Source of the DNA: Acidiferrobacter sp.
Lineage (GTDB): Bacteria; Pseudomonadota; Gammaproteobacteria; Acidiferrobacterales; Acidiferrobacteraceae
DNA length: 32,083 bases
Assembly (NCBI GenBank): GCA_027335965.1
Contig: DAHWGZ010000002.1
Coordinates: forward strand, 1 to 32,083
Reading direction: 5' to 3'
Position numbers and translations under genes: made by a program. Positions 2,989-29,011 of the stretch are shown one piece after another (position 1 is the stretch's first letter; each line of letters starts with the position of its first letter). Below the pieces are notes generated by a model. That model searched no databases and was not told where the DNA came from. It worked only from the letters and a program-made list of their open reading frames with translations.

Positions 2989-4962
2989 ATGTGCGGTATC
3001 GCGGGAATAGTGGCCTTTTCAGGCGGCAAGCCGCCGGCAAAAGCCGAGGTGGATGACATGGTGTGGCGCATTCGCCATCGGGGTCCGGACGGCCAAGGAT
3101 GTTATATCGACAGCTGCTGCTGTCTTGGGCACGCGCGGCTTAGCATTATCGATATTGCCGGCGGTACGCAGCCGCTGGCCAACGAAAGTCGCAGCGTCTG
3201 GGTGACGTTCAACGGCGAGATATTCAATTACATAGAGCTGCGGCGGCTGCTCAAAAAGCGTGGTCATGCGTTTTCAACGCACAGCGACACCGAAGTCATC
3301 GTGCATCTCTACGAGGAGTACGGCGACGATTTCCCCCGGCACCTGAATGGGCAATTCGCCATCGCAATTTGGGATGTCCGGCGGCGAAGGCTGGTGCTGG
3401 CGCGGGACCGGGTAGGCATACGGCCACTTTTTTTTCACCGCGCGCGCTCGCGTGTGTATTTCGCGTCCGAGGTGAAGGCCTTATTCGCCTGCCCGGAGAT
3501 TCCGCGCGCGCTCGATTGGGGTGGCGTGGCGCGGGTCTTTACCTACTGGGGTGTGCCGGAGCCTGGGAGCGTGTTTGCTGGCGTGCAAAGCGTGCGCCCG
3601 GGGTGTGTGGTGGTATTCGACGCGGACGGTCGTCAGCGGCAGCACCGTTACTGGGATTGGGCATTCACGCATCGCGCGGCCACCGACATGCGGAGCCGCG
3701 AGGAATGCGTGACGGGCCTGGATGAGACCTTGCGGGCGGCAATCGAGCGTCAGGTGCGTTCCGACGTGCCGGTCGGCGCTTATGTAAGCGGCGGCATAGA
3801 TTCCGCCATGATCGTGGCGTACATGACGGAAATCCTGAATGTCCCGCCACCTACATTCTCCCTGCGCTTCGCGGATCGGGAGTTCGACGAGGGTGTCTAT
3901 CAGCGCGCGGTCGCGGACCGTCATGGCACGCGCCACACCGAGGTCACGGTGACCACCATGGACATCGCGAAAGCCTTCGCGCGCACCGTATGGCATGCCG
4001 AAAGCCCGATGCTGCGCACGGCGCCCGTTCCCATGATGCTTTTGTCGCGTCATGTGCATGAGGCCGGCATCAAGGTCGTGCTCACGGGAGAAGGAGCCGA
4101 CGAGACGCTGGCCGGCTACGACATATTTCGCGAGGCGCGGGTGCGCCGTTTCTGGGCGCGCGTGCCGCGATCGCGCATGCGGCCCGCGCTCCTTACGCGC
4201 CTCTACCCGTACCTGAACGCCCATCCGGCGGCGTCCGCGGCCTATGCGCAAAAATTCTTCGGGCAGGGTCTCGAGCAGGCTGGATATCCGGGTTTCGGGC
4301 ACTGGCCGCGGTGGCAGACGACGCGGCGCAGCCTGCAATTTTTCCATCCGGATCTGAGGGCGGCCATGGATTTCGACTATGTGGAGGAGGGGCGGACCTT
4401 GCTGCCGGCCGATCACGGCGCTTGGGATGCCTTGTGTGTCGATCAATGCATCGAGGCGCGTACGCTACTGTCTGGCTATCTTCTTGGCTCGCAAGGAGAC
4501 CGGGTCGCGCTGGCCAATAGTGTCGAGACGCGCGTGCCTTTCCTCGATACCAAGGTCATCGAGTACGCCAATCGGTTGCCGGCGCGCTATAAGCTCATGG
4601 GCCTGAAGGAAAAATACATCCTAAAGCGCCTGGGGCGCGGACGCATACCCGACGTTATCTGCGACCGTCCCAAACAGCCGTATAGGGCCCCCGATAGCGC
4701 AAGTTTCTTCCATAAGGGGATCCCTGACGAGGGCGTGGCGCGCGCCTTTGAAAAAAAGCGACTCCTGGAAGTCGGATACTTCGATGCTGAGGCCGCCGGT
4801 AAGCTGTTCGAGAAGTGCCGCCAGGGAAAGGCAATAGGTTTCGCGGACAACATGGCCTTTGTGGGCATCTATTCCACGATGCTGCTTCACGAGCAGTTCG
4901 TGGAGGGCGATGCCTCCGGGACGTGCATGATAGATGAGCTGCCAAGTGTGCGGGCAGGCTGA
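2989..4962 (+). CDS. asparagine-synthase-type glutamine amidotransferase
   Basis: Class II glutamine amidotransferase fused to an ATP pyrophosphatase domain, 657 residues. The ATG at 2989 is chosen because it puts Cys at position 2 (MCGIAGI), the N-terminal nucleophile that hydrolyses glutamine; GAGAGGG lies just upstream. The glutaminase half shows RGPDGQG, GEIFNY and SDTEV. The synthetase half carries the PP-loop SGGIDS at 267-272, then LTGEGADE and a late RVPFLD. Such enzymes adenylate a carboxylate and transfer ammonia to it. It is longer than E. coli AsnB (about 554) and nearer the exosortase-associated EPS amidotransferases. Relatives in O-antigen loci (WbpS, WbtH) are linked to amidated hexosaminuronic acids, and a UDP-HexNAc dehydrogenase is encoded at 20807-22087. 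Amidation of a sugar or acyl carboxylate is inference; ordinary asparagine synthesis cannot be excluded. Confidence 0.85.
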   Translation: MCGIAGIVAFSGGKPPAKAEVDDMVWRIRHRGPDGQGCYIDSCCCLGHARLSIIDIAGGTQPLANESRSVWVTFNGEIFNYIELRRLLKKRGHAFSTHSDTEVIVHLYEEYGDDFPRHLNGQFAIAIWDVRRRRLVLARDRVGIRPLFFHRARSRVYFASEVKALFACPEIPRALDWGGVARVFTYWGVPEPGSVFAGVQSVRPGCVVVFDADGRQRQHRYWDWAFTHRAATDMRSREECVTGLDETLRAAIERQVRSDVPVGAYVSGGIDSAMIVAYMTEILNVPPPTFSLRFADREFDEGVYQRAVADRHGTRHTEVTVTTMDIAKAFARTVWHAESPMLRTAPVPMMLLSRHVHEAGIKVVLTGEGADETLAGYDIFREARVRRFWARVPRSRMRPALLTRLYPYLNAHPAASAAYAQKFFGQGLEQAGYPGFGHWPRWQTTRRSLQFFHPDLRAAMDFDYVEEGRTLLPADHGAWDALCVDQCIEARTLLSGYLLGSQGDRVALANSVETRVPFLDTKVIEYANRLPARYKLMGLKEKYILKRLGRGRIPDVICDRPKQPYRAPDSASFFHKGIPDEGVARAFEKKRLLEVGYFDAEAAGKLFEKCRQGKAIGFADNMAFVGIYSTMLLHEQFVEGDASGTCMIDELPSVRAG

Positions 4963-4975
4963 ATTGGGGGCAGGG

Positions 4976-6589
4976 ATGCTGTTGCAGGATGCATTTGCAA
5001 GAAGGGCCGCGGAGAATCCAGACGCACAGGCGTTGGTGTCGGCGGAAATACGGGTCAGTTACCGGGAGGTCAGCCGGCGTAGCGACGCGCTGGCGGCGTC
5101 GTTGGTGAAAGATGGAGTGGGGCGTGGCGATCGCGTCGCGCTGTTCATGGACAATTCGGTGGCGGCGGTCGTCGCGCTTTATGCGATCCTGAAAGCAGGC
5201 GCGGTTATGGTGCCAATCAATCCGCTTACCAAGTGCGATAAGCTTGCATTCATCCTTGCGGATGCCGAGGCTACGGCGTTCATAGGCGATAGCCACCTGC
5301 GGCGCGTCTTCGAAAGCGCTTGGGAGACCTACAGGCCGCGGGTGGTGATCGTAAGCGGTGGCGATGGGCACGACGCAAAAGACGGCGAGCGTGTCATGGA
5401 CGAGATGACGACCACCGGCGCATGCCCGGCGGTGGGCACGATCGACCAGGATCTTGCCGCGATCATCTATACATCCGGCTCCACAGGCACACCCAAGGGC
5501 GTGATGTTGACGCATCACAACATGGTGAGCGCGGCGCGGTCGGTGTCTGGTTATCTCGGCCTCATTGCGGCCGACCGCATTCTATGCGGCCTGCCGCTTG
5601 CCTTCGATTACGGACTTTATCAGGTTTTGATGGGCTTTATGGTCGGGGCCAGCGTGATCCTGGAGCGATCGTTTGCGTTTCCGGCGGCGGTCGTAAAGGT
5701 CATGGCGCGCGAACGGGTCACGGTATTTCCGGGCGTCCCGACCATATTTTCCATGCTGCTCGGGCACGAGGGCATGCTGGATGCTTATGACTGGAAGGCC
5801 GTGCGCACGATTACCAATACCGCGGCAAGTCTCCCGCCTGGGCACATAAAGCGCCTGAAGGCGCGTTTTCCCAAGGCCCGGATCTTTTCTATGTATGGCC
5901 TGACCGAGTGCAAGCGCGTGACCTACCTGGCGCCGGAAGAGATCGAGAATCGGCCCACCAGTGTCGGCCGGGGCATGCCCAATCAGGAGATCTATCTGAT
6001 TGACGCCGATGGCCGCCGCTTGCCGCCGGGCTCCGTCGGGGAGCTCGTGGTCCGTGGCAGTCACGTCATGCGCGGTTATTGGCGGCGTCCCGAGGAGACG
6101 GCGCAGCGCTTGAAGCCCGGCCCTTATCCGGGCGAGCGGGTTCTGCACACGGGGGACGTTTTTCACATGGATGAGAACGGTTATCTCTACTTCGTGGGAC
6201 GTTCGGACGACATCATAAAAAGCCGCGGCGAGAAGGTGAGCCCGAAAGAGGTGGAGAACGTCCTGTATGCCATGCCTTCGGTCCGCGAGGCGGCGGTCAT
6301 AGGCGTGGATGATGAAGTCCTGGGTCAGGCCATCCACGCGTTCGTGGCGGTCGACGCCAAGGCGCCGGTCACAAAGCAGGATATCGTGCGCCACTGCCAT
6401 GAGCATCTGGAGAGCTACATGGTGCCGAAGGTCGTGCACATCGTGGCGGCGCTTCCGAAGACGGACACGGGAAAGATCCGTAAGACCGGTCTTGCCGCGG
6501 CGGCGCGCGCGCAGGAAAAAGACGAGGCGGGCGCCGCCGCGGCACTGGCAAAACAACCTGTTAAGGCAGAGCGGGAGCACGTGCGATGA
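4976..6589 (+). CDS. AMP-forming acyl-CoA/acyl-ACP ligase
   Basis: ANL-superfamily adenylating enzyme, 537 residues, that activates a carboxylic acid as acyl-AMP and passes it to a phosphopantetheine thiol. Motifs in order: the ATP loop TSGSTGTPKG (about 166-175), YGLTECKR (A5), the GRSDDIIKSRGEKVSP hinge region (A7/A8), and PKTDTGKIRK with catalytic Lys500. ATG 4976, after a GGGGGCAGGG stretch and 13 bases past the amidotransferase stop, is preferred over an upstream ATG at 4934 that would overlap that gene. Its stop overlaps the ACP start (ATGA), so the natural acceptor is probably that carrier protein rather than CoA. It resembles the acyl ligases found in exosortase A loci. The acid used cannot be read from the sequence. 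After the catalytic Lys there is an Ala/Lys-rich tail of about 35 residues. Confidence 0.88.
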   Translation: MLLQDAFARRAAENPDAQALVSAEIRVSYREVSRRSDALAASLVKDGVGRGDRVALFMDNSVAAVVALYAILKAGAVMVPINPLTKCDKLAFILADAEATAFIGDSHLRRVFESAWETYRPRVVIVSGGDGHDAKDGERVMDEMTTTGACPAVGTIDQDLAAIIYTSGSTGTPKGVMLTHHNMVSAARSVSGYLGLIAADRILCGLPLAFDYGLYQVLMGFMVGASVILERSFAFPAAVVKVMARERVTVFPGVPTIFSMLLGHEGMLDAYDWKAVRTITNTAASLPPGHIKRLKARFPKARIFSMYGLTECKRVTYLAPEEIENRPTSVGRGMPNQEIYLIDADGRRLPPGSVGELVVRGSHVMRGYWRRPEETAQRLKPGPYPGERVLHTGDVFHMDENGYLYFVGRSDDIIKSRGEKVSPKEVENVLYAMPSVREAAVIGVDDEVLGQAIHAFVAVDAKAPVTKQDIVRHCHEHLESYMVPKVVHIVAALPKTDTGKIRKTGLAAAARAQEKDEAGAAAALAKQPVKAEREHVR

Positions 6590-6858
6590 CAAGCGTAAGG
6601 GATTGCGTCAAGGATTACATCTCGGAGAATTTCCTCATGGGCCTGAAGGACGGGGCGCTCACGGGCGACGCCTCGTTTCTGGATCTCGGGATCATAGACT
6701 CCACGGGGGTGATCGAGCTCATAGCCTTTCTCGAGGAGCGTTATGGAATACGGGTCGAGGACGCGGAAATGACCCCGGACAACCTCGACAGTCTCGATGC
6801 GATCGAGCAGTTCATTGCGCGCAAGACGTTCCGTCGAGCGTCGTCCATGACCGCTTAG
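6586..6858 (+). CDS. acyl carrier protein
   Basis: Stand-alone carrier protein of 90 residues with a PP-binding fold. The phosphopantetheine site is in FLDLGIIDSTGVIEL, with Ser39 as the attachment residue; the preceding Asp38 and following hydrophobic helix II fit the family. Helix I (VRDCVKDYISENF) and the C-terminal segment (DSLDAIEQFIARKTF) complete the four-helix pattern. The start overlaps the ligase stop by four bases, implying translational coupling and roughly matched synthesis. It needs a phosphopantetheinyl transferase from elsewhere in the genome. It is not the fatty-acid ACP, because it lacks the classical DSLD site and fab neighbours. It probably carries the acid activated by the ligase for an acyltransferase of this operon. 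Confidence 0.88.
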   Translation: MTSVRDCVKDYISENFLMGLKDGALTGDASFLDLGIIDSTGVIELIAFLEERYGIRVEDAEMTPDNLDSLDAIEQFIARKTFRRASSMTA

Positions 6859-6868
6859 GAGTCACGCC

Positions 6869-7867
6869 ATGGAAGCGGCCAAGGAACTCGAGGGAAACGC
6901 GCTGCTCGCTCTCGATTACGATCGGGAGATAGGGGCGATCGCGAGGCGATTCAAGGAGACCGTGGTGCGTTTTCGTAAACGCGGCGCGGTGGTGGCCGTG
7001 TCGGGGGGCGTGGACAGCGCGGTATGCTGCGCGCTCGCGGCACATGCCTTGGGGCCGCAGCGCGTGCTCGCGCTGTTGCTGCCCGAACGGGAGTCCTCGG
7101 CCGATTCCGAGCGGCTCGCCATGCAGGTGGTCGACGTGCTGGGCGTGCCCCATGAGCGCAAGGACATCACGGGCGCGCTCGAGGCGCTCGACTGCTATGA
7201 GCGACGCGATGCCGCGATTCGCGCCGTGGTCCCCGAGTATCGTGATGGGTGGCGCAACAAGCTCGTGATCACAGGCGGCCTGTCCGGGCAATTCAATCAT
7301 TTCCACGTCATCGCGGCCAAGCCCAATGGCGAGCGCATCGAGCGGCGTCTGGGCCTCAAGGAATATCTCGAAATCGTGGCGGCCACCAATTTCAAGCAGC
7401 GCACCCGCAAGAATGTCGAGTATCACCATGCCGACCGGCTCAACTACGTGGTCGTGGGCACGCCCAACAGGCTCGAGTACGATCAGGGGTTTTTCGTGAA
7501 GAACGGCGACGGCGCGGCCGATATCAAGCCCATAGCGCACCTCTACAAGACACAGGTCTATGGGCTCGCCCGGCATATGGGCCTGCCGCCCGAGATCGTG
7601 GCGTCGATCCCGACGAGCGATACTTACAGTCTCCCCCAGGAACAGGAGGATTTCTATTTCGCGCTGCCTTACGCGCAGCTCGATGTGGCGCTTGCCTACC
7701 GGGATGCGGGCCGCAGCGCCGCCGAACTCGCCGCGGCCTTGAGGGTGGGCCAGGTGGCGGCGGCGCGCATCTATGCCGATATCGAGGCCAAGCGCAGGAC
7801 GACACGCTACCTGCATGAGCCCCCGATCCTTATGGGGGCTAGTGAAACGCCATGCGATACGAAGTGA
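6869..7867 (+). CDS. NadE-like ATP pyrophosphatase (NAD synthase family paralogue)
   Basis: N-type ATP pyrophosphatase of 332 residues related to ammonia-dependent NAD synthase. A good ribosome site (AGGAG, 6857-6861) precedes ATG 6869. The PP-loop SGGVDS is at residues 45-50. The second family region is clear: VGTPNRLEYDQGFFVKNGDGAADIKPI (in the family, G-T-x-N-R-x-E and a GDG-D-x-x-P-I block), followed by LYKTQVYGLARHMGLP. There is no nitrilase glutaminase domain, so ammonia would come from outside, possibly from the neighbouring amidotransferase. The stretch between about residues 125 and 185 is unlike textbook NadE. It could be a true NAD synthase, but its place between an ACP and an acyltransferase, overlapping the latter by 16 bases, argues for a specialised amidating or adenylating role. 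The family is sure; the role is not. Confidence 0.8.
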   Translation: MEAAKELEGNALLALDYDREIGAIARRFKETVVRFRKRGAVVAVSGGVDSAVCCALAAHALGPQRVLALLLPERESSADSERLAMQVVDVLGVPHERKDITGALEALDCYERRDAAIRAVVPEYRDGWRNKLVITGGLSGQFNHFHVIAAKPNGERIERRLGLKEYLEIVAATNFKQRTRKNVEYHHADRLNYVVVGTPNRLEYDQGFFVKNGDGAADIKPIAHLYKTQVYGLARHMGLPPEIVASIPTSDTYSLPQEQEDFYFALPYAQLDVALAYRDAGRSAAELAAALRVGQVAAARIYADIEAKRRTTRYLHEPPILMGASETPCDTK

Positions 7868-8454
7868 AGGCGGTGGTCGTATCGCTCGTCCATTTCGTCA
7901 CCTGGCCGTTTTGGGTCCCGTCGGTCCTGGCCTATCGCGTGTTCGGCTCGGAACGGGCCTTCGATGTCTCGGCGAAGCTTTTGAGCCTGTGGCCGGGGCG
8001 CATCGGCCAATTTCTTCGGGCATCGTTTTACATGAAGACGCTCAAGGTGTGCCACTACGACCTGGCGGTCGGCTTCGGCTCGTTTTTTTCCCACCCAGAG
8101 GCGGAGGTCGGAAAGGGCGTGGGCATCGGCAGCTTTACCATCATCGGGACGGCGCGCTTGGGCGACCGGGTCATGGTGGCGAGCCGGGTGTCGGTATTAA
8201 GCGGCAAGTACCAGCATGGAGGCGGCCGGCGGGGGCGCGACTTCCGCGCCAATGACCTCCATCTGGAACCGGTTCGGATCGGCGATGGGAGCTGGCTTGG
8301 CGAGGGGTCGCTGATCATGGCCGATGTCGGTAGTCAGTGCATCGTTTCCGCCGGGAGCGTGGTCACCAAGGCCATGCCCGGCGGCTCGACGGCGGTTGGC
8401 AATCCGGCGCGATTCCTGCGTTACGCGGACAAGGCCGAGGTCGCGGCCGGCTAA
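7852..8454 (+). CDS. hexapeptide-repeat acyltransferase (WcaF/WbbJ-like)
   Basis: Left-handed beta-helix acyltransferase of 200 residues. About 80 N-terminal residues with hydrophobic patches (VVVSLVHFVTWPFWVPSVLAY) precede imperfect hexapeptide repeats: VGKGVGIGSFTIIG, LGDRVMVASRVSVL, IGDGSWLGEGSLIMADVG and SAGSVVTKAMPGGS, then the usual NPARFLR ending. It probably acts at the cytoplasmic face of the membrane, moving an acetyl group from acetyl-CoA or, given the neighbours, another acyl group from the ACP to a sugar hydroxyl or amine. Its ATG lies inside the end of the NadE-like gene. A catalytic His is plausible in KYQHGGGRRG but is not in the commonest sequence setting. Donor and acceptor are unknown. 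Confidence 0.78.
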   Translation: MRYEVKAVVVSLVHFVTWPFWVPSVLAYRVFGSERAFDVSAKLLSLWPGRIGQFLRASFYMKTLKVCHYDLAVGFGSFFSHPEAEVGKGVGIGSFTIIGTARLGDRVMVASRVSVLSGKYQHGGGRRGRDFRANDLHLEPVRIGDGSWLGEGSLIMADVGSQCIVSAGSVVTKAMPGGSTAVGNPARFLRYADKAEVAAG

Positions 8455-8538
8455 AGCACGCTCACAGCCCACGGATGGGCGGAGATCTTGCATGAATGGA
8501 GCATGGGCACGAGACGCTACGCCAGCCGAGGCTTATGC

Positions 8539-9936
8539 ATGGCGGAACGCCAAAGCGGGGACGCCGTGACGCTTCGCGAAATCATGCGTTACGCGGGCAC
8601 CTTGTATGGCGCCAATGTCGCGGCCTCGGTGGTGACCTTCGGTCTTACGGTCCTCATAAGCCGCGACATGTCGCGCGCCGACCTGGGAATCTACGGCTTG
8701 TTTCAGGCGTATTTTCTGTTCGGCGCCTACGCATCGAGCTTTGGGCTCGCGCCGGCGACCGTCAAGTGGGTGGCGAGCGGGGCGGTGGACGACGGGGAAT
8801 TCCTCGCGTTCATGGTGCTCAGGCTGGCCGGGATCTCGGGCCTCTTGTATGTCGCCGCGGGCGTGGCCTATCTCCTGTCGTTCAAGGTCCTGGCGGCAGC
8901 GCTGTTCGCGCTGCCCGCCTATCAGGTCTTCAGCGTCGGCTTGAGTGCCGCGCGCGCCCGCCTGTGGAGGCGCCGCGAGGCGCTCGTGCTGGTGTTCGCC
9001 TCGCTCGTGACCTCGGCGTGGATATTCGCGCTGCTGCTTGCCGATCACGGCTATTGGGCCCCCATACTCGGCCAGGTGCTGGGGGCCTATAGCACCGCTT
9101 TCGTCATGGTGGCCTATGGGCTCACGCGAAGATTGCCGCGGCTGCGTTGGCCCGGTGCCTGGCGGCGGGCGTTCTGGGGCACGGCCATGCCGGTGTTTCT
9201 GGGATCCGCGGTGTTCGCCATAGGGGAGCTGGCCGACCGCCTGGTGATACGCCACGTCCTGGGGCTTGCGGATCTCGGCGTCTATGTTCTCGCGCTCACC
9301 TTGTTCAACGTGCTGAACAAGCCCGTCCATATGCTCTCGCGGGTATTGCTGTCGCACTTTTCGCAGGCCGATCACGGCGCCGGTCACGCCCAGGCCCTGG
9401 AGATCGTGCGTATCAATCTCGCTGTTCTGCCGCTCATGGGCCTCGCCGCGGCCGCCGTCCTGCCGTGGGTCATGCCGCTCGTCTTGAACCGCAATTACAC
9501 GCAGGCCTTCCCGGTGTTCGCGGTACTCACCGCGGTGATCCTCGTGAAGGCCGTCGAGCTCGTGCAGTCGAGTCTCGCCGTGGCGCGCGATTCGGCCACG
9601 AGCAACATGCGCGCGCAGGTCGTGGCGCTTGTCATCTACGCCTCGGCGGTGTTTTTCCTGGCGCGCGCCTTCGGCCTGATCGGCGTGGCGTGGGCCGTGG
9701 TGCTGCGCTGGACGGTGTTGACCGTGGTCCAGCGCCTCGACATGAAGCGCCGCGGGATCGACGTCCTGCCGTCCCGCCTCTTGATGCGCGCCGCCATCGC
9801 CTATTTCGTGGCGCTGGCCTTTTTCCCGGTAGCGCCGTGGTTCATGGGCATCGCCTATCTGGGTCTTGGAGCCATGCTGCGCCTGTGGTCCGTACCGCGT
9901 GCCTGGCGCCTGGCCGTAGGCCGTGTTCAAAGCTGA
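8539..9936 (+). CDS. polysaccharide flippase (Wzx-type, MOP superfamily)
   Basis: Integral membrane protein of about 465 residues with 12-14 hydrophobic segments spread over its length, as in oligosaccharide flippases that move lipid-linked repeat units across the inner membrane. The N-terminal pattern LREIMRYAGTLYGANVAASVVTFGL followed by ISRDMSRADLGIYGLF is typical of the family. Start choice: ATG 8539 has GAGG seven bases upstream and puts the first membrane helix near the N-terminus; TTG 8488 and ATG 8503 are in frame but their GGA-like sites are too close. A gap of about 84 bases separates it from the acyltransferase, one of the longer gaps in this operon. With the Wzy-like protein downstream it suggests Wzx/Wzy-dependent assembly. 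Confidence 0.82.
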   Translation: MAERQSGDAVTLREIMRYAGTLYGANVAASVVTFGLTVLISRDMSRADLGIYGLFQAYFLFGAYASSFGLAPATVKWVASGAVDDGEFLAFMVLRLAGISGLLYVAAGVAYLLSFKVLAAALFALPAYQVFSVGLSAARARLWRRREALVLVFASLVTSAWIFALLLADHGYWAPILGQVLGAYSTAFVMVAYGLTRRLPRLRWPGAWRRAFWGTAMPVFLGSAVFAIGELADRLVIRHVLGLADLGVYVLALTLFNVLNKPVHMLSRVLLSHFSQADHGAGHAQALEIVRINLAVLPLMGLAAAAVLPWVMPLVLNRNYTQAFPVFAVLTAVILVKAVELVQSSLAVARDSATSNMRAQVVALVIYASAVFFLARAFGLIGVAWAVVLRWTVLTVVQRLDMKRRGIDVLPSRLLMRAAIAYFVALAFFPVAPWFMGIAYLGLGAMLRLWSVPRAWRLAVGRVQS

Positions 9937-9942
9937 GTCGAT

Positions 9943-9950
9943 AAGGAGGA
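9943..9950 (+). promoter_or_regulatory. strong Shine-Dalgarno site
   Basis: The sequence AAGGAGGA lies six bases before ATG 9957 and is close to the full anti-16S complement. It fixes the start of the Wzy/ligase-like gene and is the strongest ribosome site seen in the operon, suggesting efficient independent initiation for this membrane protein. Confidence 0.8.
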
Positions 9951-9956
9951 ATAGCG

Positions 9957-11240
9957 ATGCTAATGCCGCAAGCGGCGCGAACGAAACCGAGACCGGGTGG
10001 CGCCCCCCGCCCGTGGGAGACGGCGCGCATCATCGAGACGCCACTCGCCAACCGCCTGACGCTCGCGTCCATGTTTGTTTTCTTGGCGAAAATCGGCAAC
10101 CTTCCCCATCTCGGGCATTTCGAGATCGGCAAGGTCATGATCGGTCTTTCCGTTCTGGCGCTGCTGTTCGAGGGGGGTGGCTGGAAGGAGGGACTCTTGA
10201 GCCACCCGATCATGCGCGCCTACATGGGGCTATTTTTCATGGGTCTCATTACCATACCGTTCGCGATATGGCCAGGCGGAAGCGCGCGGTTTCTGTTCGG
10301 CAATTACCTAAAGGACATGGTCCTGATCGTTTTGCTGATCGTGACCACGAGGACTCCGAAGGACGTCCGCCGCCTGTTGTGGACGATCATCGTCAATACC
10401 CTGATCCTGGACGCGATCCTTCTGCATTACGGAGATCACAAGATCACGATCGTGCACCTCGGAAAAAACGAGATCGCGATGACCTCGGTGATCGCTTTTG
10501 GCATGCTGCTCGGCCTGCCGGTGAGCGGCATCGGCAAGATCTTCAAGTGGGCGGCCGGAATCATGCTGGTGTTCGCGATCTTCATGAGCGTCTCGCGCGG
10601 CAGCTATCTCGGCATATCGGCGGTGCTTATGTTGTACATGTACATGCGGTTCGGGCGCCGCGCGGGGCTCGCCGTCCTGGGCGGCGCGTTCGTGGCCCTG
10701 GCGGTCGTGGTCGGCGCCTACGAATTTGGGCCGCCCAAGGTACACCATGCGGTGGATACCCTGGTACATATTCAAAACGATTACAACCTGACGGCGCGCA
10801 CCGGGCGCATCGCGATCTGGAAACGCGGCCTGAAGATCATAAAGACCCACCCGATCGGGGTCGGCATGCGCAATTTTCCGATCGCCGAAGGACACATCGT
10901 GGAGGACGTGATCGGCGAGCGCTGGATGGATGCCCACAACGCGCTTCTCGAGGCGACGGCCGAGCTTGGCATCCTCGGGGGGATCGTGTTTCTGACGCTC
11001 TTGAAGCGTGGCATGCAGACCGCCAACAGGCTGCGCAAGAACAAGTCCTACGAGGACATGTCGCGAATCGGCCTATCGCTGGTGTTGGCGCTGTTCGCGT
11101 ACTTCGTGACGGCATCGTTTTTGTCCGAGGCGTACGCGGTGATTCTGTATATACAGATGGGGGCGATCATTGCCGCCGACCGGGTATACCGCTATACGGT
11201 GATGAGGGAAGGAAATGTCATATCTCGACCGGGTGCGTAG
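9957..11240 (+). CDS. O-antigen ligase / Wzy-type polymerase family membrane protein
   Basis: Polytopic membrane protein of 427 residues with about 10-12 hydrophobic segments and one large periplasmic loop (roughly residues 240-330). That loop holds the Wzy_C-type signature: [27 protein letters not shown], then [18 protein letters not shown], with the conserved His-Asn pair. [10 protein letters not shown] before it fits the same family. Enzymes of this type use undecaprenyl-linked glycans, either polymerising repeat units (Wzy) or ligating them to an acceptor (WaaL). Because it sits in an EPS operon beside a flippase, polymerase is the likelier role, but the two cannot be told apart here. Its 3' end overlaps the next gene by 26 bases. 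Confidence 0.82.
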
Positions 11241-11940
11241 GCGCGAGGGACTGCTGGCCGATGCCCTGTACCGCGGCTACAAGGGGATGCAGCGCCTGAA
11301 TGTCCCGGAGGTGCCCTTGCTTTACGCCCTTTTGGCCAAGGAGCGCGTGGCGCGCCGCCATGTCGGGGGCTGGATCAAGCGCAAGCTCTATGACGAACCG
11401 CTATTTCGCCGCCAATGCCAGGCCTGTGGCCGCGGCCTGTGTTTGTTCGATGGCATCCCGTCCATCTGGGGCGGGCTTTCCATAGCCATAGGCGAGAATG
11501 TCGTCATGCATGGCACATCGACGCTGGTGGGCGCCAAGGTATTCGTCAATCCGCGTCTTGTCATAGGCGACCGCAGCCATTGCGGGTCGCACTTTTCGGT
11601 GGCGGTCGGCGCCGATGTCACGATCGGATCGGATGTGTTGATAGGAAACCGGGTCTCGCTATTTGCCTATGACAGCCATCCCCGCGACCCCATGCAACGC
11701 GCGGCGGGCCTGCCGGCGGATCCTTCGAGCAGCCGGCCGATCGTGATAGAAGATGGCGCATGGATCTGCATGGGCGCAATCATCCTGAAAGGGGTGACCA
11801 TCGGCAAAAACGCCATCGTGGCGGCGGGCGCCGTGGTGGTGGAGAACGTGCCGGCAAACAGCGTGGTGGGCGGCAATCCCGCGCGCGTGTTGTCCGGCCC
11901 CCCGGGCCGATCGCGCCGGGCGCGTTCCGGGCAGGTGTGA
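11215..11940 (+). CDS. hexapeptide-repeat O-acyltransferase
   Basis: Second beta-helix acyltransferase of the operon, 241 residues; ATG 11215 follows AGGGAAGGAA. An N-terminal region of about 85 residues, with the Cys-rich stretch CQACGRGLC, precedes the repeats: [57 protein letters not shown] and [31 protein letters not shown], ending NPARVL. The loop YDSHPRDP carries the His expected as catalytic base in NodL/Maa-like acetyltransferases. It probably O-acetylates a sugar in the repeat unit. The gene overlaps its upstream neighbour by 26 bases and is one base short of the next start, so it is co-translated within the operon. A donor other than acetyl-CoA is possible. Confidence 0.82.
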
Positions 11941-11941
11941 C

Positions 11942-13093
11942 ATGCAGGTCATGACTCTGAGGCGTTACCCCCATATCGGCGCGGTGCCGCGCGTCGTGGT
12001 CTTGATATCGACGCGTATCGTCGGAGGGCCGGCCAAGGGACTTTTGCAGGTGATACCCGAGCTGCTCCGGCGTGGCCGGTTCGAGGTCGTGCTGTGCACC
12101 TTTGCCGACGCCAAGGAGTCGGAATCACCGTTCATCGCCGCCGCTCGCGAACGCGGCATACCAGTCACCATCCTGCGTCAGCGCCACCACTGGGATTTGC
12201 GGCCGCTAGCCATATTGCGCGGACTGCTCGACCCGCCGGGCGCGATCATACAGACCCATGGCTATAAAGAGGCGGTATTCGGGCTCGCCGTAAGGCGCCT
12301 GTCGCATCGCCCGTGGATCGCATTCATGCATGGGACCACCGAGGAGAATTTGAAGGTGAGACTGTACCATCGCCTGGACCGCGCGCTGACGAGGCGCGCG
12401 GATATCATCGTGTCGGTGTCGCGTGAGCTTGCCGAGCGCACGGTGCGGCCGCGCCACAGGGCCAAGCTTGCCATCATCGAGAATGCCGTCGAGCGCCCTA
12501 GGGAGGCCTTGGTGGCGCGCCGGACGCTGCGTCAGGCTTGGCAGACGAGGGGTTGGGTGATCGGTTGCATCGGCCGCCTGAGTCGCGAGAAGGGCCAGCT
12601 CATGCTGCTCGAGGCCGCGGGCCGGTTGGCGCGCCAGGGGGCGCGCTTCACTCTGATAGTGGCCGGTGACGGGCCGGATCGGGACGTGCTGCAGGAGAAG
12701 GCCGAGACCGAGGGCGTCGGCGGCCGCGTGCGCTTTTTGGGGCATGTGGCGCACGCCGAGGATATTTACGCCAATATCGACATGCTGGTGCTGCCATCTT
12801 ACCGTGAAGGCATGCCCAACGTCATTCTGGAGGCGATGCAATGGCGATTGCCGATTGTATCGACTGCGGTGGGCGCGGTGCCCGAGATGCTGGTTCATGG
12901 CGTGTCCGGCCTGCTGGTGCGCCCCGGCGACCCCATCGCGCTGGCGCGCGCCATGGCGTCGGTCATGAGTGATCCGGATAAGGCGGGGCGCATGGGCCGC
13001 AAGGCCTGTGAGGCGCTCTATCCGCGCTTCTCCCCGGAGCGGCGTGTCGAGCGTTTCGAGAGCCTTTACAGCCGCGTCCTGGAGGCGGTATGA
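11942..13093 (+). CDS. glycosyltransferase family 4
   Basis: GT-B fold retaining glycosyltransferase of 383 residues. N-terminal donor-independent half: VVLISTRIVGGPAKGLLQVI, the family's glycine-rich start, and IIQTHGYKEAVFG. C-terminal half: IGCIGRLSREKGQ, VAGDGPDRD, and the EX7E motif with Glu289 and Glu297 (YREGMPNVILEAMQ), which binds the nucleotide-sugar donor. It is cytoplasmic or membrane-associated and adds one sugar to a lipid-linked repeat unit. An in-frame ATG at 11951 is an alternative start, but 11942 sits right behind the upstream stop as other genes here do. The stop overlaps the next start (ATGA). Donor and linkage cannot be predicted. Confidence 0.88.
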   Translation: MQVMTLRRYPHIGAVPRVVVLISTRIVGGPAKGLLQVIPELLRRGRFEVVLCTFADAKESESPFIAAARERGIPVTILRQRHHWDLRPLAILRGLLDPPGAIIQTHGYKEAVFGLAVRRLSHRPWIAFMHGTTEENLKVRLYHRLDRALTRRADIIVSVSRELAERTVRPRHRAKLAIIENAVERPREALVARRTLRQAWQTRGWVIGCIGRLSREKGQLMLLEAAGRLARQGARFTLIVAGDGPDRDVLQEKAETEGVGGRVRFLGHVAHAEDIYANIDMLVLPSYREGMPNVILEAMQWRLPIVSTAVGAVPEMLVHGVSGLLVRPGDPIALARAMASVMSDPDKAGRMGRKACEALYPRFSPERRVERFESLYSRVLEAV

Positions 13094-14214
13094 GCGCGTT
13101 GTTCTGGGCGGCGTTTGCGTTCACGGTGTATACCTATGGAGGCTACCCGGCCCTTTTGTGGGTGCTGGCGCGGCGGCATAGGCCAAGCCCCGCCCCGCAT
13201 TGGGATTCGCCGCCGCCCGAGGTCGCGGTCGTGATCCCGGCCTATAACGAGCAATCGGTGATCGCCGACAAGCTGCGTGTGGTGCTGGCCTCGCATTATC
13301 CGCGCGAGCGGTTGCGCGTGCTGGTGGTGTCCGATGGCTCATCGGATGGCACCTTGGCCGCCGCCCGCTCGGTGTCCGATCCCAGGCTTACCGTGATCGA
13401 CCGCGGCGTGCGATGCGGCAAGATGGCGACCGTCAACTACGCCATGAGTCTGGTGCGCGAGCCCATCGTCATCATGACCGACGCCGGGGAGATGTTCGAC
13501 GAGGATACCGTGCCGCGACTGGTGGCGCGTTTCGCCGATCCGGCCCTGGGCGCGGTCTCGGGCGAGCTCGGGCTCGTGGCCTTGCACACGGGATTTAGCC
13601 GCAGCCTCGGGGCCTATTGGCGCTATGAGAAGGCGATTCGCGCCCTGGAGGCGGTCGTGGGATCGGTGGTCGGGGTCACGGGGCCCGCTTATGCCATTCG
13701 CCGTTCGCTGTTTCATCCGATGCCGACCGACACCATTCTCGACGATCTCGCGATCCCGCTCGAGGTCATAAAGCAGGGCTACCGCGTCGGCTATGAGCGC
13801 CGCGCGTTTGCCTTCGAGCGCGCCACCCAGGGCGGTCGCCACGAGTTCGTGCGCAAGCGCCGGACGCTTGCCGGAAATTACCAGATCATCGCCCGCTATT
13901 GGCGCCTGCTGTTGCCGCAAAGCCCGATCGCCTGGCAGTTCTGGTCGCACAAGGTCTTTCGCCTGCTGGTGCCTTACGCGCTCCTGTTCATGGTGGTTGG
14001 CGCCTTCGGCCTGCCAGGGCCTCTGCGCGCCATCGTATTCGCGGCCCAGGCCCTGTTCTATGGACTGGCCTTGATCGCGGTGTTCATGCAGCCCTCGAAG
14101 CGGCCATGGCTCAATATCCCCTACGCGTTCTGCGTGTTGAATTGGGCCGCGATCGCCGGATCGTATTATTATCTGGCGGGACGGCTATCGGTGCGCTGGG
14201 AGAAGGTCAAGTGA
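13090..14214 (+). CDS. membrane glycosyltransferase family 2 (CESA/HAS-like)
   Basis: GT-A glycosyltransferase of 374 residues anchored by one N-terminal hydrophobic segment (about 4-28) and C-terminal membrane segments (about 285-360). Motifs: VAVVIPAYNE at the start of the fold, SDGSSDGT at 81-88, a TDAG metal-binding site near 130-133 in place of the usual DXD, an acidic DDLAIP at 218-223 that fits the base position, and RKRRTLAGNYQ near 255-265, resembling the R/QxxRW element of processive enzymes. It is therefore similar to the N-acetylglucosamine and hyaluronan synthase branch. It could be processive or an initiating or adding transferase in the Wzx/Wzy route. It overlaps the flanking genes by four bases on both sides (ATGA and GTGA). 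Confidence 0.85.
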   Translation: MSALFWAAFAFTVYTYGGYPALLWVLARRHRPSPAPHWDSPPPEVAVVIPAYNEQSVIADKLRVVLASHYPRERLRVLVVSDGSSDGTLAAARSVSDPRLTVIDRGVRCGKMATVNYAMSLVREPIVIMTDAGEMFDEDTVPRLVARFADPALGAVSGELGLVALHTGFSRSLGAYWRYEKAIRALEAVVGSVVGVTGPAYAIRRSLFHPMPTDTILDDLAIPLEVIKQGYRVGYERRAFAFERATQGGRHEFVRKRRTLAGNYQIIARYWRLLLPQSPIAWQFWSHKVFRLLVPYALLFMVVGAFGLPGPLRAIVFAAQALFYGLALIAVFMQPSKRPWLNIPYAFCVLNWAAIAGSYYYLAGRLSVRWEKVK

Positions 14215-15425
14215 GCGCGCCGCGCCGCTATGTGTTCGTGGCCGCGGGCCCCGACTGGGGGCGCCACCCCTGCAGCCTTTCGCACATCATCGGGGTCGTG
14301 GTCCGCGACCATCCGGTGATCTGGATCAACAGCATCGCCCAGCGCAGTCCCCGCCTGTCGCGCCGCGATATCGCGCGGGCCGTTCATAAAGGATGGGCTG
14401 CGCTGCGGCCGGCGCCGCGCCGCGCGCACGATGGTCCGCTGGTCGTCCATCCACGCGCCATCCCTTATCACCGGTTGCCGTCGGTGCGATCGGTCAACGG
14501 GTGGCTCATCGCCCGCCAGTTGCGGCCGGTGTTGGCGCGTTTTGCCGGATACAAGGTGGTATTGGTGGCCACCAACCCGGCCGCCGTGGCGCTTGCCAAC
14601 AGCCTGCGGCCCGACGCCACCCTCTATTTCTGCATGGATGACTATGCCCGCATGCACGACTCGGATGCGCGGCTGATCGAGGTCTGTGAACGGCTGATGC
14701 TGATGCGCGCGGACGCCACGGTGGTCACGGCGCGGGCGCTCGTCGACAGCAAGACCTGGCAAGGGAAACGGCCGATCTATTTGCCGCAAGGGGTGGATGT
14801 CGCGCATTTTCAAAACCCGGGCCCGCCGCCGGCGGCGCTGTCGGCCCTGCCGCGTCCGATCATAGGATTTCAGGGCATCATCGGGGCGCGTGTCGACATC
14901 GCGCTTTTGGAAAAGATCGCGCGCCGGTTCCCCGAGGTCTCCGTGGTCCTGGTCGGCAAGGAAGAGGTGGATATCTCGTTGCTGAAGCGCCTGCCCAACG
15001 TCCACGCCGTCGGACCCGTGGCCTATGCCGAGCTGCCGTCGGTCATACAGGTGTTCGACGTGGGGCTCGTGGCCTACCGCGACGACGGACATGTGGAGAG
15101 CGTGAATCCCTTGAAGCTGCTCGAATACCTGGCTTTGGGCCAGGAGGTCGTGTCGGTCCCGATCCCGGAACTCGCCGCGCATGAGCCGCATGTGCGCCGC
15201 GCGCGCGGCCACGAGCGCTACCTGGCGGTCCTCGAGACGGTGATTTCCCGTTACCCGTTCGATCCGGCGGACAAGGCGCGGCGCCTGGCGTATGCGGCGA
15301 CTCAATCCTGGGAGGCGCGCGCGCGGGATTTCATGGCGCTTTGTGATGAGCTTCTGGGGAAGCCGGGCCTCGGCCCTTCCGACAAAGACCGCGCGCTGGG
15401 CGCGCGCCAAAGGACCGGCTCATGA
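14211..15425 (+). CDS. GT-B glycosyltransferase (TuaH/GT1-like)
   Basis: Predicted glycosyltransferase of 404 residues starting at a GTG that overlaps the upstream stop (GTGA). The start PRRYVFVAAGPDWGRHPCSLSHI and the YFCMDDYARMHDSD segment are typical of a family often called TuaH-like. The donor half shows IYLPQGVDVAHF, IIGFQGIIGARVD, VVLVGKEEVD and the family ending SVNPLKLLEYLALGQEVVS, in which Glu contacts the donor sugar. No membrane segments are evident. It is one of four sugar transferases of the operon, which suggests a repeat unit of at least four residues if each adds one. Its stop overlaps an ATG at 15422 that could begin the small reading frame described next. Confidence 0.8.
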   Translation: MSAPRRYVFVAAGPDWGRHPCSLSHIIGVVVRDHPVIWINSIAQRSPRLSRRDIARAVHKGWAALRPAPRRAHDGPLVVHPRAIPYHRLPSVRSVNGWLIARQLRPVLARFAGYKVVLVATNPAAVALANSLRPDATLYFCMDDYARMHDSDARLIEVCERLMLMRADATVVTARALVDSKTWQGKRPIYLPQGVDVAHFQNPGPPPAALSALPRPIIGFQGIIGARVDIALLEKIARRFPEVSVVLVGKEEVDISLLKRLPNVHAVGPVAYAELPSVIQVFDVGLVAYRDDGHVESVNPLKLLEYLALGQEVVSVPIPELAAHEPHVRRARGHERYLAVLETVISRYPFDPADKARRLAYAATQSWEARARDFMALCDELLGKPGLGPSDKDRALGARQRTGS

Positions 15426-15637
15426 CGGCGATCTTCAGGAAAGGCCGCCGGGTCCGGGCTCCGCGGATGAGGGCGGCGCCGATCGTCCGGGAGGGCGCGG
15501 GGCTTCGCCATCGGGCGCGTCAATCGTCGTCCGGCGTCATGGCAGGGTGCCCGCGGGGCGCGGACGAAAGACGGGAAGGGCCATTGAGGAGTCCTCTTGC
15601 GGCCAGCGCCGCGGGCTTTAACGCGAGGCGTCTATGA
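15422..15637 (+). CDS. possible small basic protein, 71 residues
   Basis: Short reading frame filling the only gap over 100 bases between genes of this operon. Its ATG overlaps the upstream stop (ATGA at 15422-15425) and its TGA overlaps the downstream start (ATGA at 15634-15637), the usual sign of translational coupling. The product is strongly basic and Arg-rich, has no membrane segment, signal peptide or motif that I recognise, and uses many CGG, AGG and GGG codons unlike its neighbours. It may be a real coupled mini-protein, a leader that only carries ribosomes across, or chance in GC-rich DNA. Confidence 0.35.
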   Translation: MTAIFRKGRRVRAPRMRAAPIVREGAGLRHRARQSSSGVMAGCPRGADERREGPLRSPLAASAAGFNARRL

Positions 15638-16740
15638 AGCGACAGGACGTGGTGGTGGAGGTGATTTACGCGCCCCTGGTGGGGGGGTCGGAGATGCTGG
15701 CCTTCAATCTTTGCAAGGAATGGCAGGCCCACGGGATCAAGACGCGTATTTGCTGCCTCTATGAACGCTCGGGGGCCCTGATCAAGGTCTTCGAGGAGGC
15801 CGGCATACCCTACGATCTGCTCGATATCGGCGGACACAGGCTCTTGGGGCGCTGGCTGCGCACGGCGCGCTATTTCTGTCGGACAAGGCCGCGGGCCATC
15901 CATGTGCATCATCTCGGATCATTGGTCAACGTGCTCGTACCCGCCTATTTCGCGGGCTGCTTCAATATCGTCTACACCGAGCATTCCGCCTATACGATCG
16001 CGCGTACGCGATGGATGCAACGCCTGCTTCCGGTCGCAAGCCGCCTGGTGACGCGCTTTACCTGCGTGTCGCGCAATCTCGCCGAGTTTTTCACGACCCT
16101 CGGCGTCCCTCGGGAGCGCCTGCTCACCATTTATAACGGCGTGGACACCGATCGCTACAAGCCGGGGGCCCCGCGCGCGGAGTTTTGCCCCGTGGTGCGC
16201 ATTGGTGCGGTGGGCCGTCTGGTGGCGGAAAAGGATTACCCGACCTTGCTGGCGGCGCTCGCGCTCCTGAAGGCCCGCAACGTGCGTTTTTTCGCCGAGA
16301 TCGCCGGCGACGGACCGCTGTCCGCGGAGCTCAAGGAGCGCGCCCAGGCGCTGGGCCTGCGCGGCCTCGTAAGCTTTCGCGGTTCCTGCGACAACGTCCC
16401 GGCGTTCTTGCGCGAGCTCGACATTTACGTCTTGAGTTCGCGCCACGAGGGCCTGCCGATCGCCGTCCTGGAGGCCATGGCCACGGCCTTGCCGGTGGTC
16501 GCGACCCGCATTACCGCGATCCCCGAGGTCATAGATGACGGCTGCACCGGGATGCTGGTCCCGCCGGGAGATGCCCCGGCCATGGCCGATGCGCTTGCGC
16601 TGCTCGCCGGCGACGGCGCGCGGCGCCGGGCGCTCGGAGAGGCCGCGCGCGACATGGTCCGCATGCGCTACACGATCTCGAACACGAGCCGCTCGTATGC
16701 CGCGGAACTGGGAATACGAACCCGAAAGAAGGCCGTGTAA
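15634..16740 (+). CDS. glycosyltransferase family 4
   Basis: GT-B retaining glycosyltransferase of 368 residues. GAGG lies six bases before ATG 15634. The first half shows the donor-independent start VIYAPLVGGSEMLAFNL and VYTEHSAYT; the second half shows IGAVGRLVAEKDYPTLL, IAGDGPLSAEL and the EX7E motif with Glu272 and Glu280 (RHEGLPIAVLEAMA), which binds the sugar nucleotide. It is closest in style to PelF/WcaL-type EPS enzymes, though the precise donor is unknown. It differs in sequence from the other GT4 of this operon (11942-13093), so the two are not a recent duplication. A spacing of about 45 bases separates it from the hydrolase gene downstream. Confidence 0.88.
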   Translation: MKRQDVVVEVIYAPLVGGSEMLAFNLCKEWQAHGIKTRICCLYERSGALIKVFEEAGIPYDLLDIGGHRLLGRWLRTARYFCRTRPRAIHVHHLGSLVNVLVPAYFAGCFNIVYTEHSAYTIARTRWMQRLLPVASRLVTRFTCVSRNLAEFFTTLGVPRERLLTIYNGVDTDRYKPGAPRAEFCPVVRIGAVGRLVAEKDYPTLLAALALLKARNVRFFAEIAGDGPLSAELKERAQALGLRGLVSFRGSCDNVPAFLRELDIYVLSSRHEGLPIAVLEAMATALPVVATRITAIPEVIDDGCTGMLVPPGDAPAMADALALLAGDGARRRALGEAARDMVRMRYTISNTSRSYAAELGIRTRKKAV

Positions 16741-20616: not shown

Positions 20617-20806
20617 GCGCGCACCGTTCATGGCTTTGCGGCCCAGCTGTGGGAACAGGTGCTCATGGTGGGGGCCGGTGGCGTAGCGCGCCATCCTGCT
20701 TTTGGCTTATTGCTGACGGCATCCAAGGCCAGTAGCGTGGCGGGCTGAAGCGGTTGGCCATTGGAATGGCAGACCTGGAAGGTTCATGGATAGACAGGGA
20801 CGCATG

Positions 20807-22087
20807 ATGAAGACAGTGGCGGTGGTGGGGCTTGGCTATGTGGGCCTGCCTTTGGCGGTGGCCTTTGGAAAGAAGTGGCGTACCATAGGTTTCGATCTCG
20901 ACGAACGGAAGGTCGATAGCTATCGACATTTTTGCGACCCGACCGGGGAGGTCACGAGCAATGATTTGCGCGCGGCCGGCGAGCTTATGGTGACAACGGA
21001 TCCGGCGGCGATCGCCGAGGCGGATTATATCGTCGTGGCGGTACCGACGCCGATAGACGCGGCGCACCAGCCGGACTTGGGACCGCTCGTGCGCTCCAGC
21101 CGAACGGTCGGTGAGCATCTGAAGCGGGGCGCCGTGGTGGTATATGAATCCACGGTGTATCCGGGGGCCACGGAGGAGGTCTGCGTGCCCATTCTCGAGC
21201 AGCGCTCGGGACTTGTCTGCGGACGCGACTTCCATGTCGGATATTCGCCGGAGCGGATCAACCCGGGCGACAAGGAGCATACCCTGGCGCGCATCATGAA
21301 AATCGTCGCCGGGGACGATGCCGAGACCCTCGAGAAGGTCGCGGCGCTCTATGGCTCGATCATCGATGCCGGCATCTACCGGGCCTCGTCGATCAAGGTG
21401 GCGGAGGCCGCGAAGGTGATCGAGAACACGCAGCGCGACCTCAATATCGCGCTCATGAACGAGCTATCGATCCTGTTTCACAAGCTGGATCTCGATACCG
21501 GCGAGGTGTTGGCCGCGGCCGGCACCAAATGGAATTTCCTGCCGTTTCGTCCCGGGCTCGTGGGAGGGCACTGTATCGGCGTCGATCCCTATTATCTGAC
21601 CTACAAGGCCGATAAACTCGGCTACCATCCGCAGGTGATCCTGGCCGGCCGGCGCATCAATGACGGCATGGGCCAGTATGTCGCCGAGCAGACGGTCAAG
21701 CAGATGATCCGTTCGGGCAGCGCGGTGAAGGGTGCGCGCGTCAACGTATTGGGGCTCACATTCAAGGAGAACTGTCCGGATTTGCGTAACTCGCGGGTCG
21801 TGGACCTCATAGACGAGCTGCGCTCGTACGGCGCGGAGGTATTCGTGCATGATCCGGTGCCGGCCCAGGACGCGGCGCGCGAGGAATATGGGATTACGCT
21901 GCTGCCTTGGGAGGAGCTGCCGGTCGCGGACGCCATGGTGGTGGCCGTGGCGCACGCGGATTTCCTGGCCCTGGACGCGGAGACCCTGGCGGGCAAGGTC
22001 AGGCCTGGGGGGGTGTTCGCCGACGTCAAGGCGCTATTCGACGCCGCGGCACTTTCGGCATGCGGGCTTTCGGTCTGGCGGTTATAA
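20807..22087 (+). CDS. UDP-HexNAc 6-dehydrogenase (TviB/WbpA/WbpO-like)
   Basis: NAD-dependent UDP-sugar dehydrogenase of 426 residues, converting a UDP-N-acetylhexosamine to its uronic acid. The N-terminus [19 protein letters not shown] binds [25 protein letters not shown] and the substrate region [19 protein letters not shown] follow. Catalytic Cys256 is in [16 protein letters not shown], a sequence seen in the TviB/WbpA branch rather than in typical UDP-glucose dehydrogenases (GxCFPKD). The C-terminal third has [21 protein letters not shown] 20807 has AGGGA at a good distance; 20804 and 20786 (with GGAAGG) are alternatives. It probably supplies the uronic acid for the EPS made by the upstream operon, and the adjacent epimerases fit that pathway. 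The exact stereochemistry of substrate is inferred. Confidence 0.87.
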
Positions 22088-22115
22088 TGGTGCGGTAGGA
22101 CGCAAGGATGGTGAC

Positions 22116-27512: not shown

Positions 27513-27557
27513 GCCCGTGGACGCTCGCCCCGTTCCCTCTTGCGCGGCCCGCAGCCC

Positions 27558-29004: not shown

Positions 29005-29011
29005 GCGGGTC

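Follow-up and report, generated by a model that had tools for sequence, protein, structure and literature searches.

A four-gene carrier-protein cassette with a NadE-like enzyme in an exopolysaccharide operon of Acidiferrobacter

Genes at the locus

The window analysed here is the whole stretch of 32,083 nucleotides of contig DAHWGZ010000002.1 from Acidiferrobacter sp. (assembly GCA_027335965.1; Acidiferrobacteraceae), and our subject is a run of five genes at positions 2989-8454, within an exopolysaccharide (EPS) operon. These genes encode an AsnB-type amidotransferase, an adenosine monophosphate (AMP)-forming ligase, an acyl carrier protein (ACP), a protein resembling the nicotinamide adenine dinucleotide (NAD) synthase NadE, and a hexapeptide-repeat acyltransferase, here called HexA. 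Computational comparison of loci shows that AsnB, the ligase, the ACP and the NadE-like gene form one portable biosynthetic cassette. The five genes are as follows.

2989-4962, + strand: AsnB-type glutamine amidotransferase, 657 amino acids; PF00733, PF13537; TIGR01536 474.8 bits (cut-off 267.1)
4934 or 4976 to 6589, + strand: AMP-forming ligase, amino-acid-adenylation-like; PF00501, PF13193
6586-6858, + strand: ACP, 90 amino acids; PF00550 27.6 bits (cut-off 20.8)
6869-7867, + strand: NadE-like N-type ATP pyrophosphatase, 332 amino acids; NF002048/PRK00876 435 bits (cut-off 313); PF02540; marker of the cassette
7852-8454, + strand: hexapeptide-repeat acyltransferase HexA, proposed terminal transferase, 200 amino acids; PF00132

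Coordinates, profiles and motifs confirm the initial annotation in its reading of five intact genes with intact catalytic motifs inside an EPS operon. AsnB retains its MCG amino terminus and the SGGIDS and GEGADE motifs, the ligase retains TSGSTGTPKG, GRSDDIIKSRG and the TDTGK lysine, the phosphopantetheine serine of the ACP is present in LGIIDSTG, and the NadE-like protein keeps the SGGVDS P-loop together with the ATP and Mg residues. Of the two intergenic gaps described earlier, the one of 10 bases between the ACP and NadE-like genes stands, whereas the one of 13 bases, between the AsnB stop at 4962 and the ligase, exists only if the ligase starts at the ATG at 4976; the in-frame upstream ATG at 4934 would produce an overlap instead. 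The ligase/ACP and NadE-like/HexA junctions overlap.

Linkage and spread of the cassette

Among 398 sampled genomes of Pseudomonadota, 15 carry NF002048 over its cut-off, and these served as the cassette genomes. In all 15 the NadE-like gene has a ligase and an ACP no more than 10 kb away, and in 14 it also has an AsnB, whereas none of the three was found near the canonical nadE of the same genomes (0/15 in each case). The control loci around canonical nadE spanned 20 kb each, except L071 (12.5 kb) and L075 (16 kb), and the cassette loci compared spanned 16-20 kb; linkage was counted on stop-to-stop frames, since the open reading frame caller had put antisense frames over NadE or the ligase. 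The models for ligase, ACP and AsnB were trained on loci L005-L016 of the genome collection; the locus of genome G001 is itself training locus L005, and the other 14 loci are independent. All four genes occur in 9 of these 12 collection loci, of which L005-L009 are contigs of G001, G404, G402, G408 and G400 and add no evidence beyond the window's own family.

Three core orders were observed (AsnB-ligase-ACP-NadE, NadE-AsnB-ligase-ACP and AsnB-ACP-ligase-NadE), and because the genes stay linked in three different arrangements the linkage itself appears to be selected. The order asnB-ACP-ligase-nadE is found in all four plasmid loci examined (Sinorhizobium meliloti, Mesorhizobium ciceri, Nitratireductor and Mesorhizobium NBSH29), drawn from 116 plasmid records with a NadE match, and the megaplasmid pSymB of S. 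meliloti strain 1021, examined in addition, likewise carries all four genes. The earlier proposal that the genes act as a functional unit is thus upheld by the linkage in 15/15 genomes and by the order conserved within the family, and the gene set, including the co-occurrence of the ACP and NadE-like genes, is kept far beyond close relatives. The core nevertheless comprises four genes rather than the five first proposed, because the acyltransferase differs between loci.

The resulting carrier-protein pathway is real, widespread and apparently uncharacterised, its parts belonging to known families. No description of the four-gene set was found among the listed titles and abstract openings of open PubMed Central papers, closed journals being outside that scope. 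AsnB-like and ACP genes in other non-ribosomal operons are reported in PMC2922099, the consulted parts of which do not mention an NAD synthetase or synthase. The statement in the initial annotation that no characterised system has this exact set was nearly right, the qualification being that work exists on the ligase and ACP of the S. meliloti copy (PMC7232532, in the parts consulted).

Among the 14 genomes used as controls for NF002048, Methanosarcina acetivorans is the only one with a match over cut-off, and the NadE-like family reaches the archaea. A search of phage for AsnB gave 11 records, all below 60% identity. On the S. meliloti megaplasmid (L077, 12508-14431) the cassette lies close to minCDE, and in L054 the NadE-like gene is immediately preceded by another AMP ligase, which is fused to a thioesterase domain (6680-9415); similar long ligase frames are present in L047 and L052.

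The two amide-forming enzymes

Databases name the NadE-like proteins NAD(+) synthase. The window protein scores over the cut-off of TIGR00552 (an equivalog_domain model; 138.1 over 63.65) and under those of NF010587 (163.4 under 255) and NF001979 (86.2 under 250). The P-loop and the residues aligned to the ATP, Mg and carboxylate sites are kept in all 34 NadE-like sequences, the roles of the ATP and Mg sites being those that we take them to have in NadE. Eleven other canonical NadE positions are replaced, and the replacements are themselves invariant across the set (n=34). A fold comparison of the NadE-like model returned NadE, GMP synthase and LarE folds and gave no pointer to another substrate class. 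All 15 cassette genomes carry a separate NAD synthase gene, so that the NadE-like gene is never the sole one, and the possibility entertained in the initial annotation that it is the cell's only NAD synthase does not hold. This NadE-like member is probably mislabelled as an NAD-making enzyme.

The SGG[IL]DS and GEGADE motifs are kept in 28/28 cassette AsnBs. The DVTT part of the DVTTIRAS stretch of Escherichia coli AsnB, which we take to be aspartate-binding, is missing in the cassette proteins, and RTA is kept in 28/28. The nearest genome, G001, contains a second AsnB-type gene.

The ligase, the carrier protein and the S. meliloti precedent

Among solved structures the window ligase is closest to the adenylation domains of peptide synthetases, and its score with TIGR01733 is 305.3 bits, below the cut-off of 317.4. 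Its letters at the ten adenylation-domain pocket positions, which we assigned by what we take to be GrsA numbering, are DYYPTTMRVK, with its FD aligned to gramicidin synthase domains. Arg330 and Lys517 are present in 27/27 cassette ligases and Asp235 in 17/27; the equivalent aspartate presumably holds the amino group in peptide synthetases. Judging from this pocket, the acid loaded in the window's clade is probably an alpha-amino acid or a close analogue. The best model for the ACP is the ornithine-lipid ACP NF052616 (55.5 bits, under the cut-off of 130).

According to the parts of PMC7232532 consulted, SMb20650 on pSymB is an AMP-binding protein predicted to be a long-chain acyl-CoA ligase and is cotranscribed with the ACP SMb20651; in E. 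coli, holo-SMb20651 is acylated by SMb20650, and SMb20650 could not replace FadD on oleate. The consulted part of PMC5686131 (2017) states that the functions still need further investigation. We had considered SMb20650 and SMb20651 as a separate locus, the PF00550 search of pSymB having missed the cassette ACP and returned positions 677604 and 633150. This was dropped because no ligase was found in the 14 kb around the match at 677604 and the single PF00501 match on pSymB of strain 1021 (1452018-1453106) sits inside the cassette, and SMb20650 and SMb20651 are therefore, by elimination, the cassette ligase and ACP.

A linked PrmC-like gene and a probable amide

The PrmC/HemK family methylates the amide of glutamine. 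When 30 distinct NadE-like loci were compared (L005-L016, L047-L060, L077-L079 and L081, with the duplicates L076 and L080 set aside), a PrmC/HemK-like gene was found in 10, nine of them with the NPPY motif, against 0/15 control loci. A separate PrmC over cut-off is present in 15/15 genomes. In seven extra PrmC-like copies from these genomes the profile match begins only at position 45-53. Six of the seven are found a few kb from the cassette, and that of G385, about 24 kb away, is outside the 10 counted; the copies of L011 and L016 match the TIGR03534 profile from position 24-25. The gene occurs in 10/17 loci whose ligase has Asp235 and in 0/10 others (Fisher p=0.003), and after near copies were collapsed in 10/13 against 0/9 (p=0.0005), although these tests treat the loci as independent beyond that collapsing and they are not fully so.

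Since such methyltransferase genes are linked to it, the cassette product is likely to bear a carboxamide, which in the Asp235 loci would probably sit on an amino-acid-like unit. The amidated or amino-acid-like acyl group proposed in the initial annotation fits both these linked genes and the adenylation-domain-like pocket of the ligase.

The exopolysaccharide operon in the window's family

The genes that surround the cassette in the window, together with a sugar-nucleotide pair further downstream, are listed below.

423-1889, + strand: EPS-operon uncharacterised protein, outer-membrane-barrel-like from sequence reading; no NCBIfam match
1886-2977, + strand: EPS-operon AAA ATPase of XrtA/PEP-CTERM type; TIGR03015 309.1 bits, cut-off 324.5
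8488-9936, + strand: EPS-operon flippase, Wzx-type; PF13440
9957-11240, + strand: EPS-operon Wzy-type O-antigen ligase/polymerase, by Pfam
11215-11940, + strand: second hexapeptide acyltransferase, HexB, by profiles
11942-16740, + strand: four glycosyltransferase genes of the same operon, class read from sequence, order conserved; that at 13090-14214 has no NCBIfam match
20786-22087, + strand: TviB-like nucleotide-sugar dehydrogenase; NF011729 494.6 bits (cut-off 592)
about 22116-23171: epimerase-like gene after the TviB-like dehydrogenase

The order ATPase-AsnB-ligase-ACP-NadE-HexA-flippase-Wzy-HexB is kept in all 13 further family genomes whose loci were compared, as far as the contigs reach (L091 and L095 begin inside AsnB and L089 ends in Wzy), as well as in G001, the nearest genome, so the five-gene order is not a product of chance. 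Nor are these loci near-clones, since in L093-L095 the five module proteins share only 60-77% identity with those of the window. Of 18 family genomes, 14 have both the NadE-like gene and the EPS polymerase Wzy; the other four have neither, and three of these four are at least 90% complete. Within the window's family the module is thus tied to the EPS operon. No EPS operon lies in the annotated flanks (about 9 kb per side) of the cassettes of S. meliloti and Nitratireductor, so the term EPS module is too narrow. Polysaccharide genes do flank the cassette in L052, L057, L058, L059 and L060, and the gene families concerned are common to L052 and L054.

In L015 (5692-6858), an EPS-type locus, a GGDEF diguanylate cyclase gene follows immediately after the NadE-like gene. 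The TviB-like dehydrogenase and epimerase-like gene of the window (20786-23171) are a possible source of hexosaminuronic acid for the polymer. From position 1 to about 6500 the window is 99.8-100% identical in DNA to the nearest genome (L005/G001) and from 6501 to 12966 it is 88-94% identical; this drop near the ACP gene reflects either recombination inside the operon or a chimeric assembly. A tRNA-Glu gene (ctc; 24099-24174, - strand) separates the EPS region from the next genes. Some 20 kb from the ACP, at 26709-28439, lie two genes that we take from their motifs to be panB- and panC-like, and presumably of the pathway to pantothenate and hence phosphopantetheine. A frame resembling a major facilitator superfamily transporter follows at 28764-30509 (- strand); in its translation the last third is no longer transporter-like, as if out of frame.

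Acyltransferases beside the core

The genes adjacent to the core vary between loci, the hexapeptide enzyme being present in the window's family and in G283, where a homologue 55% identical to HexA stands directly after NadE (L060) even though the core order differs. GNAT-like proteins forming one similarity group occur in L014, L016, L055 and L058, with a Pfam match over cut-off in L058, weak matches in L016 and L055 and none in L014. Another group, of 353-381 amino acids (L050, L051, L053, L078, L079 and L081), has no Pfam match where searched and may also be of GNAT nature. Compared by profile, the acyltransferase-like groups F18 and F11 matched each other only weakly (17.8% probability across 112 columns), and group F18 is accordingly called GNAT-like only as a suggestion. 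Ketosynthase III genes stand beside the core in L011 and L013 and thioesterase (PF00975) genes in L048, L054 and L057. The simplest reading of this variation is a carrier-bound intermediate served by an exchangeable transferase; in the window we infer that HexA has this part and that an EPS sugar receives the group.

Proposed pathway and alternative explanations

We propose that the product of the cassette is an acyl-ACP that is amidated and probably derived from an amino acid, and that HexA puts the group on a sugar of the EPS, a proposal that we hold to be about evenly poised between right and wrong. The ligase would adenylate a carboxylic acid and load it on holo-ACP, the acid here being probably an alpha-amino acid or something closely analogous. 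At least one carboxylate, on the acyl unit or on its precursor, would then be converted to a carboxamide by two ATP-dependent enzymes, AsnB, which carries a glutaminase of its own, and the NadE-like enzyme, which would derive from NAD synthase, giving for example a glutaminyl- or asparaginyl-like acyl-ACP. The finishing enzyme would be specific to the locus: in the window HexA would transfer the ACP-bound group to the repeat-unit sugar, at a hydroxyl or an amine, before flipping and polymerisation, while elsewhere the GNAT-like, ketosynthase-III-like or thioesterase genes beside the core may take this place and the PrmC-like enzyme may N-methylate the amide. Which acid is used, where it is amidated, how the steps follow one another and what accepts the group are our inference.

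Several observations weigh against this proposal. It leaves unexplained why the cassette needs two amide-forming enzymes. AsnB was not found in the 20 kb around the cassette of G266, and 3 of the 12 collection loci have incomplete sets (L010 with ACP and NadE, L012 without the ligase, L015 with AsnB and NadE only). In comparisons of protein distances, which partly mirror shared ancestry, AsnB and NadE are the most strongly correlated (r 0.92) and the ligase and NadE the least (0.68), the ligase thus being the component that co-varies least with NadE. Position 235 of the ligase is Ser, Gly or Ala in 10/27 proteins, which makes a single amino-acid substrate common to all of them unlikely. Three of the 15 genomes (G247, G398 and G168) contain no full PF00733 match other than the cassette AsnB. 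The PrmC-like gene was not found in the family loci L005-L009, so the clue to an amide comes from other clades, and the Fisher tests behind it carry the dependence between loci noted above. As for HexA, the best named acyltransferase model reaches 49.6 bits against a cut-off of 243, and its use of an ACP donor is presumptive.

Another possibility is that the cassette produces a free small metabolite or signal, that its position in the EPS operon is incidental and that HexA is an ordinary sugar O-acetyltransferase. The absence of an EPS operon from the annotated S. meliloti and Nitratireductor flanks and the thioesterase genes of L048, L054 and L057, which could release a free acid, speak for this, but we judge it unlikely given that the NadE-like gene and Wzy are together or both absent in 18/18 family genomes, that the cassette lies between the ATPase and the flippase in every family locus whose contig extends that far, and that polysaccharide genes flank it in L052 and L057-L060, with the gene families of L052 present in L054 too. 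AsnB-type enzymes that form the uronamides of O-antigens are known, of the WbpS and WbtH types, and AsnB, perhaps with the NadE-like enzyme, might likewise convert a nucleotide-linked hexuronic acid into a uronamide at its C6 carboxylate, the ligase, ACP and HexA serving a separate purpose. The TviB-like dehydrogenase and epimerase-like gene could supply uridine diphosphate (UDP)-hexosaminuronate and NadE normally binds a nucleotide-bearing substrate. This explanation is nonetheless rather improbable, for in 15/15 genomes the NadE-like gene comes with the ligase and ACP, no such dehydrogenase is listed in the annotated S. meliloti and Nitratireductor flanks, and the association with PrmC-like genes points to a glutamine-like amide.

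There is only a slim chance that a fatty acid is what the ligase puts on the ACP and that the module makes a lipidated polymer or a lipid. The prediction of SMb20650 as a long-chain acyl-CoA ligase and its acylation of SMb20651 in E. coli (PMC7232532, consulted parts) agree with such a role, as does the ornithine-lipid model matched best by the ACP; the same source, as far as consulted, reports that SMb20650 failed to replace FadD on oleate. The solved proteins nearest to the window ligase are moreover adenylation domains of peptide synthetases, a pocket for fatty acids would not be expected to contain Asp235 and Arg330, and both amide-forming enzymes would be left unexplained. It is extremely improbable that the NadE-like and AsnB proteins are simply the NAD synthase and asparagine synthetase of the cell, placed here by chance, as their database name, intact catalytic residues and the three genomes with no other full PF00733 match might suggest. 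Housekeeping NAD and asparagine synthesis is largely refuted by the separate NAD synthase in every cassette genome, by the conserved linkage to the ligase and ACP and by the absence of the NadE-like match from four of the 18 family genomes. For AsnB the rejection is less firm: the second AsnB-type gene of G001 answers the earlier suggestion that this could be the only asparagine synthase, and the three genomes without one do not.

Returning to the amidated acyl-ACP, we tentatively suggest, as possible rather than probable, a portable pathway of Pseudomonadota in which a dicarboxylic amino acid is loaded, is amidated, either on the carrier or shortly before loading, by AsnB together with a NadE turned to a new use, is N-methylated in some clades by a PrmC catalytic domain freed from release-factor recognition, and is put on polysaccharides or other acceptors by interchangeable acyltransferases of hexapeptide, GNAT-like or ketosynthase III type; such a pathway would give the orphan ACP SMb20651 of S. 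meliloti a role. Were the proposed chemistry correct, a large group named NAD(+) synthase (NF002048; 15/398 sampled genomes) would leave NAD metabolism for a defined four-gene pathway that could be reconstituted, and an orphan rhizobial carrier protein would gain partners. Bacterial polymers would also be expected to carry amide-bearing substituents of a new kind, and a PrmC-type domain to act outside protein release factors.

Comparison with known systems

The window resembles the EPS clusters associated with XrtA/PEP-CTERM in the gene types of the operon core, and its ligase and AsnB match TIGR03098 and TIGR03108 strongly, but the scores fall below the cut-offs (TIGR03098 463.5/592.35, TIGR03108 421/816.9, TIGR03015 309.1/324.5). 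In XrtA/PEP-CTERM clusters the decarboxylase TIGR03099 neighbours the ligase. No exosortase (TIGR02602) match was found in 18/18 family genomes and no TIGR03099 match over cut-off in 14/14; with the sub-cut-off scores, these results rule out membership of the exosortase system. The EPS export protein model TIGR03027 is matched in the relative L007 (182.3 over 180), and its counterpart would lie upstream of the window start.

Relative to canonical NadE and the Francisella nicotinamide mononucleotide synthetase, the NadE-like proteins keep the majority residue at 55/113 conserved columns. They differ from canonical NadE by changes that are uniform in 34/34 sequences, for example Y82 to E73, A145 to Q177 and R199 to Y231, and strands 129-135, 144-150 and 156-160 of the NadE-like model fall in a stretch that aligns poorly with it. 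The linked PrmC-like copies score 165-202 bits with TIGR03534, the model of the release-factor glutamine methyltransferase PrmC, from which they differ in their truncated profile match and in being additional to a PrmC over cut-off; they were not found in the family loci L005-L009. The S. meliloti pSymB locus has the same four genes, in the order asnB-ACP-ligase-nadE, and, unlike the window, no EPS operon in its annotated flanks (CP050561 copy); asnB and nadE are not mentioned in the consulted parts of the paper on its ligase and ACP (PMC7232532). The top-scoring solved relative of the window AsnB is the hydroxyamidotransferase 7ylz, one of the AsnB-type tailoring amidotransferases (210.9 bits, against 168.3 for E. 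coli AsnB), whose pathway, going by its name, is a different one, whereas the cassette AsnB is a fixed partner of the ligase, the ACP and the NadE-like enzyme.

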